Source: Eubacteriales bacterium
Lineage (GTDB): Bacteria; Bacillota; Clostridia; Tissierellales; GPF-1
Length of the DNA: 64,000 bases
Assembly: GCA_030625815.1 (NCBI GenBank)
Contig: DAOUQF010000004.1
Location: 62,001-126,000 of the forward strand
Direction of reading: 5' to 3'
Position numbers and translations under genes: made by a program. Under the pieces are notes generated by a model that made no database searches, had not been told where the DNA came from, and saw nothing but the letters and a program-made list of their open reading frames with translations. This document shows, in pieces, positions 31,537-35,405 of the stretch; position 1 is the stretch's first letter, and each line of letters begins with the position of its first letter.

Positions 31537-32769
31537 CTATCGATATAATGGATAGTTGGAACAAAGCGAGTCAACCAATTTCTTCGCTTGCTCTAAATCC
31601 GGGTTTTCTTTCAATGTCAGTTCAAAGATTTCTGCAATCACATCCATATCCGCTTCCGTAAATCCCCTTGTGGTTATCGCCGGTGTGCCAAGGCGAAGTC
31701 CGCTAGTCACAAATGGGCTTTCCGGATCAAATGGAATGGTGTTCTTGTTTGCAGTCACCCCGATTTCATCCAAGCGATGCTCCGCCTCTTTCCCAGTAAT
31801 TCCTCGATTTCGAACATCAACCAGAACCAGGTGATTATCGGTTCCGCCGGATACCAGGGTAAAGCCGCGTTTCAATAGCGCGTCGCTCAATGCCGCTGCA
31901 TTATCGATGGTCTTCTGTTGATAGACCTTGAACTCTGGTGTCAAGGCTTCCTTGAAACTCACCGCTTTTGCGGCAATGACGTGCATCAATGGACCGCCCT
32001 GGGTTCCGGGGAAAATTGCCTTGTCAATCTTTTTCGCATATTCTTCTCGACAGAGAATGGCGCCGCCCCGCGGACCGCGCAAGGTTTTATGTGTGGTCGT
32101 TGTGACAAAATCAGCATAGGGTACCGGATTTTGATGCAAGCCCGCTGCAACAAGTCCAGCAATATGCGCCATGTCCACCATCAAATAGGCGCCAACCGCA
32201 TCCGCTATCTCTTTGAATTTGTCAAAGTAAATTTCCCGCGGATAAGCGCTCGCACCCGCAACAATCAGTTTTGGTTTTACTTCTTTTGCCAATTCCATCA
32301 AGACATCGTAATCAATGACTTGAGATTCTTTCTCCACGCCGTAGCTCACAAAATTAAAATAGGTTCCAGAAATATTAACAGGACTGCCATGAGTCAAATG
32401 TCCACCATGGGACAAGTTCATTCCAAGAACGGTGTCTCCCGGCTTCAGAATGGCGAAATATACGCCCATGTTCGCGTTTGCTCCGGAGTGCGGCTGAACA
32501 TTGGCATGGTCTGCGCCAAACAATTCCTTCATGCGATCCCTCGCGAGGTCTTCTACAATATCAACAAACTCGCAACCGCCATAATATCGTTTCCCCGGGT
32601 ATCCTTCTGCATATTTATTGGTCAGATAACTCCCCATTGCCTCCATCACAGACTCGGAAACAAAGTTTTCCGATGCAATCAATTCAATCTTGTCGGATTG
32701 ACGATTTTTCTCCAATTGAATCGCTTCATATACTTCTGGATCAGTTTTCATTACTTGCTCAAAATTCAT
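31537..32769 (-). CDS. glyA: Serine hydroxymethyltransferase
   Basis: 410 residues. Converts serine and THF to glycine and methylene-THF. PLP lysine in [15 protein letters not shown] (near 226), [11 protein letters not shown] and YYGGCEFVD regions are intact. Transcribed alone from an extended -10 promoter and closed by a strong terminator. ATG behind GAGGGAGGTCGCGT. Confidence 0.98.
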
Positions 32770-32830: not shown

Positions 32831-33112
32831 TTATTTTGAATACTTCACGACCAAATCCAGCAAGTTTTTCAATAGGTCTTCTTGGTTTCCTTCTTTCAAT
32901 TGATTCACCAGGCACTCTTCGATATATTCTTCCAGAACCAAACCGCCAACTTTATGCAGCGCCGCTTTGGCCGCTGAAATTTGGATCAAAATATCCTGAC
33001 AATCCTTGTCCTCGTCCACCATCTTTTGAATCCCTTTTACCTGCCCTTCAATTCGTCTCAATCGAAGAATCAAACTGCCTTTGTCCTTCCGACTACAAGA
33101 TTTTGTCGTCAT
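32831..33112 (-). CDS. CsoR/FrmR family (DUF156) repressor lacking the metal-site histidine
   Basis: 93-residue all-helical regulator. The family core LRRIEGQVKGIQKMV is at 18-32. The copper sensor CsoR uses Cys-His-Cys; here Cys38 and Cys67 have the same 29-residue spacing, but the residue four before Cys67 is Tyr63, not His. Two cysteines without the histidine are seen in the persulfide sensor CstR, so sulfur or thiol sensing is at least as likely as copper; this is inference. It overlaps the 3' end of rseC by 20 bases and is co-transcribed with it. No metal ATPase or sulfur gene is nearby. Confidence 0.85.
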   Translation of the reverse strand: MTTKSCSRKDKGSLILRLRRIEGQVKGIQKMVDEDKDCQDILIQISAAKAALHKVGGLVLEEYIEECLVNQLKEGNQEDLLKNLLDLVVKYSK

Positions 33113-33527
33113 ATTGATCCCCTCCCAAAACTCGTTTCATTGCCAATCGTTTCTTCTGGCGGCTAAATACCTTTCGATCCAAAACCCATAGAAATCCAAA
33201 TGTCGCGATCATGGTCAACAGTCCTACGCCAAAGGCTTTCACCTCGGATTCGAACCAAGCCGACCCCAGTAAGATGCCAATGATCATGCCGGCGGCCGGA
33301 ATCCCGTAGACAATCAGACTCGACAGCAAAATAAATCGCGTATCGGAAATAATCTCCACATAATCCCCTTGACTTGCACCAAGTTCATTCTTCAACGCAA
33401 CAACAATCGACGGCGCGTCGCAAGATCCCCCGCAGGACTTGCAATTCCCGCCGCATGAAGAGATCCGTCTCACTTGTACCATTACTTGGTTCTCTTTTTC
33501 CTCAATTACATATCCTATTTGATCCAT
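33093..33527 (-). CDS. rseC: SoxR-reducing-system RseC/MucC family membrane protein
   Basis: 144 residues. A soluble N-terminal part carries Cys25, Cys29, Cys32 and Cys36 (CGGNCKSCGGSC), followed by two membrane helices (about 70-90 and 98-118) and a basic C-terminal tail. This is the RseC/MucC layout; in proteobacteria RseC assists the Rsx/Rnf complex that reduces SoxR. Neither rnf genes nor soxR are nearby. The cysteine group could bind a metal or cluster or act as a thiol pair. Co-transcribed with a CsoR-family regulator, an uncommon partner. Confidence 0.85.
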   Translation of the reverse strand: MDQIGYVIEEKENQVMVQVRRISSCGGNCKSCGGSCDAPSIVVALKNELGASQGDYVEIISDTRFILLSSLIVYGIPAAGMIIGILLGSAWFESEVKAFGVGLLTMIATFGFLWVLDRKVFSRQKKRLAMKRVLGGDQYDDKIL

Positions 33528-33571
33528 ACCCTCATCCTTTCGGTACCCCTACACCGTATCATTCCAGTATT

Positions 33572-33599
33572 ATCATACCACAAATCCCCTCTTTTTCAA
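33572..33599 (-). promoter_or_regulatory. Promoter of rseC-csoR
   Basis: TTGAAA (33594-33599), 16-bp spacer, TATGAT (33572-33577) with a TGG extension. The -35 box almost touches the rarA terminator. Confidence 0.65.
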
Positions 33600-33601
33600 G
33601 C

Positions 33602-33624
33602 AAAAAGACGACTCTAGTCGTCTT
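33602..33624 (-). terminator. Intrinsic terminator after rarA
   Basis: AAGACGAC/GTCGTCTT stem with a 4-nt loop and following U-tract on the minus strand; it contains the rarA stop codon and closes the ftsZ-nrdR-rarA run. Confidence 0.85.
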
Positions 33625-34942
33625 CTCTCAACAATTCCAAATATGCTTTCATCTTCTTTTCATAACCCTGATCGGTGGGTTCGTAAAAATCGCTCTCTCC
33701 CAAAGAATCCGGCAAATACTCTTGCTTCACATAATGATTCGGATAGGTATGGGTATGGGGATAGCGATATGCCGGTCCCGCATCGCCTTGATGCCGCGCC
33801 TTCATGCCGCGCGCCGTGGAATCCCGCAAATGCTCGGGAACCGCCGCAATTTTTTCAGTTTGCACCTTCTGCAGCGCGCGATTGATCCCCAAATAGGAGG
33901 CGTTGCTCTTCGGCGCCGAAGCCAGATAGGTCGTCGCTTGCGCCAGTAAAATCCTGCCCTCAGGCATGCCGATCCGCTCAACTCCTTGCGCGACGGACAG
34001 CGCCACTTGAATGGCTTGCGGATCCGCATTTCCGATATCTTCCGAAGCACTGATCATCAGCCGCCGGCAGATAAATTTCGGATCTTCTCCCGCTTCGATC
34101 ATCAATGCCAGCCAATACAACGCGGCATTCGGATCCGAGCCTCGAATGCTTTTGATAAAGGCGGAAATCACATCGTAATGGAAATCGCCATTTTTTTCAT
34201 AACGCACCGGTTTTCTCCGGGACGCGTCCGAAATCAAAGCAAGGGAAATGCGTATTTCCTCTTCTGTCGATTCGGCAATCATAACCCCCATCTCCAAAAG
34301 ATTCAACGCAACACGCGCATCGCCATTTGCCACTTGAATCATATATTCCACGGCCTCATTCTCAATATGAATCGGCAGTTTGCCAAACCCATTTTCTTGG
34401 TCACTAATCGCACGCTGAACGATTTTGCGAATAGCTTCATCCTCCAAGGGTGCGCATTCCAATACGATTGATCGTGAGATCAATGCCTTGTTCACTTCAT
34501 AATATGGATTTTCCGTCGTTGCTCCAATCAAGATCAAGGTGCCGTTTTCAACATAGGGAAGGAGGGCATCCTGCTGCGCTTTGTTAAATCGATGAATTTC
34601 ATCGATAAACAAAATCGTTCCAATTCCCTCAAAGCGTTGAGATGCCTTTGCCTTCTCAACCACCTCGCGAATGTCTTTCACCCCCGAAGTAACTGCATTC
34701 AGCCGAAAGAAGGCTTTTTTTGTTTCATTGGCCAAGATCCGCGCCAGGGTTGTCTTTCCCGTGCCCGGAGGTCCAAATAAAATTAAAGAAAGCAATTGAT
34801 CATGATCAATCGCTTTTTTCAACACTGAATTTTCACCGACCAAGCGTTCCTGCCCTTGAAAATCGAACAATCGATTCGGACGCATTCGCTCTGCCAATGG
34901 CTGATATACTTTTTTTTGTTCTGCAAATCCAAATAAATCCAT
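33614..34942 (-). CDS. rarA: Replication-associated recombination protein RarA (MgsA)
   Basis: 442-residue AAA+ ATPase acting at stalled forks. Walker A FGPPGTGKTTLARIL near 55, Walker B LFIDEIHRFNKAQQD, sensor GATTENP, and the C-terminal oligomerisation domain ending with a conserved YRYPHTHTYPNHYV segment. Starts at ATG 34942 behind AGGAGAAAA; the longer frame adds seven unsupported codons. Follows nrdR by seven bases. Confidence 0.96.
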   Translation of the reverse strand: MDLFGFAEQKKVYQPLAERMRPNRLFDFQGQERLVGENSVLKKAIDHDQLLSLILFGPPGTGKTTLARILANETKKAFFRLNAVTSGVKDIREVVEKAKASQRFEGIGTILFIDEIHRFNKAQQDALLPYVENGTLILIGATTENPYYEVNKALISRSIVLECAPLEDEAIRKIVQRAISDQENGFGKLPIHIENEAVEYMIQVANGDARVALNLLEMGVMIAESTEEEIRISLALISDASRRKPVRYEKNGDFHYDVISAFIKSIRGSDPNAALYWLALMIEAGEDPKFICRRLMISASEDIGNADPQAIQVALSVAQGVERIGMPEGRILLAQATTYLASAPKSNASYLGINRALQKVQTEKIAAVPEHLRDSTARGMKARHQGDAGPAYRYPHTHTYPNHYVKQEYLPDSLGESDFYEPTDQGYEKKMKAYLELLREDD

Positions 34943-34949
34943 TTTTCTC

Positions 34950-35405
34950 CTACTTTTCGTCAAGCATCTTTTTCAATTCATCAAGAAAGGTATTCAAATC
35001 CTTAAATTGACGGTAAACCGATGCAAAGCGAACATATGCAATCTCATCCAGGTCTTTGAGCTGATTCATCACCAATTCGCCAATCATCGTGGATGAAATT
35101 TCCCGCTTCAAAGAATTCTGCAAATTCTTTTCAACTTCATCTGCAATCGACTCCATCTGCTTCACGGATACCGGCCGTTTCTCGCAAGCGCGAATCAAAC
35201 CATTTAAGATTTTATCTCGATTGTATTCCTGCCGAGTTCCATCTTTCTTGATGACAACGATCGGAATATGTTCGATTTTTTCATAGGTTGTAAAGCGCTG
35301 GTTGCATTTTACGCATTCCCGACGGCGACGAATCGAATGACCCTCTTCTGTCGGTCTCGAATCTACCACTTTTGTTTCATAATAATCACAAAAAGGACAT
35401 TTCAT
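34950..35405 (-). CDS. nrdR: Transcriptional repressor NrdR
   Basis: 151 residues. N-terminal zinc ribbon (Cys3, Cys6 and CVKC at about 31-34) and an ATP-cone (about 49-139) that senses ATP/dATP to repress ribonucleotide reductase genes. I see no paired NrdR boxes in this window, so its targets lie elsewhere. It directly follows ftsZ; in many spore formers spoIIGA, sigE and sigG lie between the two. Confidence 0.97.

Follow-up and report, generated by a model that had tools for sequence, protein, structure and literature searches.

The locus described here raises the question of what a CsoR/RcnR-family regulator senses, and what it controls, when its gene adjoins rseC and not copA or copZ. 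The window, by which we mean the whole stretch of 64,000 nucleotides that was analysed, carries on its minus strand rseC (33093..33527), encoding an RseC/MucC-family membrane protein of 144 aa, followed by the gene of a putative repressor of 93 aa (32831..33112; DUF156, PF02583). Both belong to their families by profile score, with 93.4 bits for PF02583 (cut-off 22.8) and 82.4 bits for PF04246, the RseC_MucC profile (cut-off 24.4). The two reading frames share 20 nt on the same strand, as the initial annotation had noticed. The upstream neighbour is an mgsA/rarA-like ATPase gene (33614..34963, minus strand), and a glyA-like gene (31537..32769, minus strand) comes 61 nt behind the regulator; both were named by recognition. 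The mgsA gene ends in a hairpin and a run of T (33602..33627, minus strand; z -2.7), which 3 of 200 shuffles equalled in folding. This hairpin is missing from the pattern-scan output for terminators at this locus, and we read it as a putative terminator parting mgsA from the rseC unit. It is followed by a promoter-like site (33572..33599, minus strand; TTGAAA-16-TATGAT, with TG preceding the -10), present at the same place in two relatives (G001, G002), and then, immediately 3' of the -10, by the operator-like site TACGGTGTAGGGGTA (33544..33558, minus strand) of the class TAC-N6-GGGGTA. With a terminator-like hairpin after mgsA and a promoter-like site of its own, the rseC-csoR pair thus looks like a separate unit. 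The initial annotation had remarked that no rnf, soxR or copper genes are near. None adjoins the pair, but rnfC and a cop-linked csoR lie elsewhere in the genome. Among the immediate neighbours we identified no rhodanese, CoA-persulfide reductase or SQR, and no known RNA element was found at the locus.

The translation bears out the earlier description of the regulator: Cys38 and Cys67 stand at CsoR spacing (29 residues), and Tyr63 takes the place of the CsoR histidine. A third cysteine, Cys6, and the operator-like site had gone unmentioned. With C38, Y63 and C67 the protein lacks the Cys-His-Cys set of copper ligands, and its neighbours (rseC, mgsA and glyA) include no copper efflux or chaperone gene. 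It also stays below the NCBIfam equivalog cut-off for RcnR (46.2 bits against 138). It resembles copper CsoR proteins (e.g. 4m1p) in fold family, cysteine spacing, G-tract operator and self-regulating unit, and differs from them in the Tyr and in the genes that it adjoins. Two cysteines at CsoR spacing with the histidine replaced is the residue pattern of CstR. The structure 7mq3, titled CsoR in the PDB, carries Ala at the His position and is presumably CstR, the persulfide-sensing CsoR-family repressor of S. pneumoniae; the pseudo-palindromic operator is a further likeness. Two differences stand against these likenesses. The partner here is RseC, and elsewhere thioredoxin, whereas CstR units described in the available parts of PMC9405070 and PMC10318464 hold rhodaneses, CoA-persulfide reductase or SQR. 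No sulfurtransferase or persulfide-clearing target was found among the immediate neighbours, the genome-wide search covering one motif. Another parallel is TTHA1953 of Thermus, a CsoR-family regulator of sulfur oxidation which, according to the portion of PMC10318464 consulted, is a second, cysteine-based family member beside a true CsoR with a distinct operator. Its targets lie far from its own gene, while the apparent target of the window regulator is its own unit. The protein is best filed within the CsoR family, without the hallmark of copper CsoR and without the known CstR partners, and as CstR-like if our reading of its chemistry holds.

Among 150 relatives of the same order, RseC is present in 146 and PF02583 in 125. 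The 118 rseC loci that we read came from 111 of the 146 RseC-bearing genomes, and the regulator lies directly behind rseC (29-134 nt between the profile matches) in 82 of the loci. These belong to 80 genomes, so that at least 80 of the 150 relatives, spanning 15 families, have the adjacent pair. The cross-genome search for rseC-DUF156 pairs suggested with the initial annotation thus removes the concern that the arrangement is peculiar to this genome. Adjacent pairs were absent from the examined loci of families f4, f15, f16 and f17. In three genomes (G028, G038 and G040) about one gene's stretch separates rseC from csoR. The distance is 2.4-3.2 kb at these loci (L075, L071 and L087, respectively), and a large protein is encoded in between in G028 (767 aa) and G040. 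Two other genomes carry two rseC-csoR pairs each (L074 and L089 in G136; L090 and L094 in G003), through either duplication or mixed assembly. The usual order is aspS-[tcdA]-rseC-csoR, followed by glyA or by an oppositely read thrE-like gene (Pfam identified the ThiF, ThrE and thioredoxin families; aspS, tcdA, mgsA and glyA were named by recognition). At six cluster loci in f9, f12 and f18 (e.g. L037, L060 and L062), csoR has a codirectional thioredoxin-like gene behind it; at the two f17 loci such a gene comes after rseC, with no csoR.

The cysteines of the rseC-linked regulators do not vary: all 86 have the first (C38 position), and the second (C67 position) is found in all 85 readable sequences. 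The His position, in contrast, holds Tyr in 54, His in 28 and Gln in 2 (n=84, one truncated and one distant row having been dropped). It has changed at least seven times on the regulator tree, H, Y and Q alternating among orthologs of the same locus. Since the histidine is freely exchanged while the cysteines never vary, the former seems dispensable, and the latter not, in the rseC-linked clade. All 16 unlinked PF02583 copies retain His (Fisher p 3e-7 against the linked ones, kinship not corrected). We find this pattern easier to reconcile with dithiol chemistry than with a Cys-His-Cys site for copper, though with 28 His-bearing orthologs it is no proof. The initial annotation had likened the loss of His to persulfide sensors. 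Tyr63 is indeed there, but the loss is no fixed mark, and because H, Y and Q alternate and the thioredoxin-linked relatives described below mostly have His, it says less than had been stated.

The window genome contains a second PF02583 gene (L002), with C-H-C residues, directly behind genes for a P-type ATPase and an HMA protein, which is an ordinary copper arrangement. On a tree of 106 rows, many inner forks of which are unresolved because the protein is so short, 84 rseC-linked regulators and one orphan copy (from G028) form a single branch with support 94/88. This branch, to which the window regulator belongs, is separate from the copper-type copies, among them the copA-linked CsoR that these genomes also carry. 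Membership of the window regulator in a copper operon was considered and found unsupported, the cop-linked copy being a different gene.

What the regulator controls is suggested by the operator-like site. The sequence TACNGTNNAGGGGTA has a single exact match in the whole window genome, at 33544-33558, and exact TACTACCNRGGGGTA matches five times in eight genomes, every time at an rseC-csoR unit. Three members of the window's genus carry ATACsGTryAGGGGTACC right behind the -10. In other families the leader preceding rseC or tcdA-rseC-csoR carries related sites: TACTACCTAGGGGTA in f11 (three genomes), TACCTCCTAGGGGTA in f12, TACTACCCAGGGGTA in f13, TACCCACGTGGGGTA in f6 and TACT(A/G)CCGGGGGGTA in f9 (two genomes). 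Overall, TAC-N6-GGGGTA is found in the leaders of 11 of 86 paired loci (1.3 expected), always with identical spacing and on the coding strand, and in 0 of 32 unpaired rseC loci (0.26 expected). Considering leaders of at least 60 nt, the numbers are 11 of 31 paired against 0 of 17 unpaired loci (Fisher p 0.004), so that 20 of the 31 paired ones lack the motif. An operator in every paired family was rejected, none being found in f5, f7, f8, f10 and f18. At most f3, f5, f7 and f14 loci there is no promoter gap directly upstream, and the pair comes after aspS-tcdA. The earlier proposal that the regulator controls its own membrane partner gains from the single operator-like site at the promoter, and self-regulation of the rseC-csoR unit is, on these sequence data, quite probable.

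A profile built from 13 linked regulators had matches at E <= 1e-20 in 211 of 299 genomes, and 88 such loci outside the order, from other classes of the phylum, were examined (L188-L275). There, rseC is near and downstream of the regulator in 16; 38 have a thioredoxin gene nearby, 12 have copA or HMA, and tcdA lies upstream in 34. Throughout the phylum csoR is commonly found immediately upstream of a thioredoxin gene, with tcdA or aspS preceding it and with a G-tract operator. The operator class occurs upstream of csoR in 22 of 38 thioredoxin-linked loci (2.1 expected), 5 of 15 rseC-linked ones (0.64 expected), 4 of 12 cop-linked ones (0.89 expected) and 2 of 23 others (0.64 expected). Histidine is retained in 74 of the 88 relatives, including most thioredoxin-linked ones. 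The 14 Tyr variants lie by thioredoxin (9) or rseC (5), a placement that gave p 0.055 when tested against the 12 cop-linked loci. The initial annotation had suggested a small redox or sulfide-sensing unit, and this agrees with the partners, RseC and thioredoxin, being thiol or redox proteins.

The strongest evidence for a connection with copper is locus L190 (G184), where copA, csoR, rseC and an HMA-like gene, the last named by recognition, form one stretch. The regulator could still sense Cu(I) or another metal, if Tyr is tolerated or if a different ligand, perhaps Cys6, makes up the site; in that case RseC would be a target of copper stress because copper attacks its cysteines or an Fe-S site. 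Conservation of His in a third of the same-locus orthologs (28 of 84) and in most wider relatives is in keeping with this, and 4m1p, a copper CsoR, is the best solved-structure match of the window regulator. As the cop-linked relatives share the operator class, the effector cannot be read from the motif. However, the pair has no adjoining copper gene, the window genome owns the separate C-H-C CsoR described above, and His was lost in 56 of 84 rseC-linked copies of the order but in none of the 12 cop-linked or the 16 unlinked ones. We consider a metal-sensing role unlikely, and favour sensing through the two cysteines.

Somewhat less probable still is that rseC and csoR are mere neighbours, functionally unlinked, in a conserved housekeeping cluster (aspS-tcdA-rseC-csoR-glyA/mgsA). 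The order of this cluster is itself conserved, and f4, f16, f17 and most f19 loci keep the rest of it without csoR. Yet where csoR is missing the operator is missing as well, and the f1 loci, like two of the three from f11, have the unit at a distance from tcdA and preceded by an operator of its own. Outside the order the two genes come in reverse, csoR before rseC, which argues for a functional link beyond inherited order, and otherwise it is mainly thioredoxin that adjoins the regulator there. Improbable, too, is an effector that targets only C38, be it an electrophile (formaldehyde or some other aldehyde) or another oxidant: that invariant Cys is the one used by FrmR of the same family, but FrmR sensing needs Pro2 (both as given in the accessible part of PMC5016687) where the window protein has Thr2, the FrmR equivalog cut-off of NCBIfam is far away (44 bits against 133), and the invariant C67 is unnecessary for such a mechanism. 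A regulator that reads the thiol state of C38 and C67 and acts on its own unit is thus the reading that we develop below.

The output of such a regulator would be RseC. As had been noted, the window RseC is a membrane protein with four cysteines: they form an N-terminal motif, C25-x3-C29-x2-C32-x3-C36, followed by two hydrophobic segments (hydropathy windows starting at 64-73 and 96-99). It shares PF04246, the N-terminal Cys motif, the two membrane segments and the Rnf/Rsx link with RseC of E. coli and C. ljungdahlii; solved structures gave chance matches only. In E. coli, according to the section of PMC11729352 available, the motif is CX5CX2CX5C, RseC needs two of its three conserved Cys and can do without the first Cys of the motif, and the N-terminal part can carry an oxygen-sensitive Fe-S cluster. 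By its place in the motif that dispensable residue corresponds to the first Cys of the window type, which is invariant (Cys or Sec) in the order. Window-type RseC also differs in being linked to a DUF156 repressor and in occurring without SoxR. The reduction of SoxR, which the initial annotation had brought up for RseC, is not borne out and was rejected as its role in the window genome: SoxR exceeds the cut-off in 0 of 41 genomes, the window genome included, and the protein scores 24.2 bits for PRK10862, the SoxR-reducing RseC of NCBIfam (cut-off 184). As for Rnf, no rnf gene is nearby, as had been stated, but rnfC is present in the window genome (G000:C55) and in 147 of 150 relatives. With both RseC and RnfC near universal within the order, their co-occurrence there says little; among 14 named control genomes, the two were found together in just three, those of E. 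coli, B. ihuae and T. maritima. Since Rnf is present and SoxR missing, it is more likely, judging from gene content, that RseC here serves Rnf. In C. ljungdahlii, autotrophy and rnf expression need RseC, the control of rseC itself being left open, and CsoR is not mentioned, in the text of PMC9124969 as far as available. Our literature search found no relevant paper joining RseC with CsoR, nor one joining CsoR, thioredoxin and persulfide in Clostridium.

The first Cys of RseC deserves a separate comment. Across 119 loci of the order the codon at this position specifies Cys in 112, as in the window, and is an in-frame UGA in 7: L082 (G092), L093 (G124), L115 (G072), L121 (G145), L124 (G007), L125 (G080) and L126 (G030). 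These represent only four lineages (f5 g48, f5 g43, f6 and f16), and G127, close to the g48 set, has Cys instead. All seven genomes encode selB and tRNA-Sec, and all seven loci show, 21-24 nt past the UGA, a SECIS-like hairpin of 5-6 bp whose loop contains G. A rule-based hairpin score had a median of 6.5 in UGA loci against 3.1 in Cys loci (p 6e-5, ignoring kinship), while plain folding energy did not differ between them and is uninformative as a SECIS test. RseC, MucC and PF04246 are absent from the accessible portion of a 2026 inventory (PMC13188914) that covers 119 selenoprotein families, and our search found no relevant paper on RseC or MucC as a selenoprotein or with selenocysteine. With UGA at a Cys position, the Sec machinery and the hairpin all in place, RseC of these seven relatives is likely a selenoprotein family missing from that inventory. 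The exchange of Cys for Sec singles out one cysteine of RseC as chemically important, and the mechanism of RseC thereby becomes testable.

Taken as a whole, the observation made in the initial annotation is confirmed, and its interpretation is partly supported. We hypothesize that rseC and csoR would be transcribed as one unit from their own promoter and that the DUF156 repressor, in its reduced form, would bind the single G-tract operator at the start of the unit, thereby limiting its own synthesis and that of RseC. Because His has given way to Tyr and is freely exchanged while both Cys are invariant, sensing would go through C38 and C67' across the dimer and not through a Cu(I) site, similarly to CstR, with persulfide, polysulfide or disulfide stress as the signal. 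Modification of these thiols would then lower repression and yield more RseC, a membrane protein whose redox-active Cys cluster may support the Rnf complex, so that more RseC would change Rnf function. For this whole chain, in which a dithiol repressor responsive to persulfide or disulfide would regulate itself and control RseC as an Rnf-associated redox protein, we regard the chances as evenly balanced.

More tentatively, and with the balance leaning against it, it is tempting to propose a thiol/selenol switch that extends across anaerobes. A dithiol CsoR-family repressor near aspS-tcdA would sense sulfane sulfur or disulfide stress and free thioredoxin in many lineages or RseC in others, and RseC, in some cases an unlisted selenoprotein, would set Rnf, tying sulfur and redox status to energy conservation. 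The conserved, operator-bearing repressor in the rseC unit offers a direct handle on how anaerobes may adjust Rnf to thiol and sulfur status. If its effector is persulfide, it would represent a new output of CstR-type sensing.
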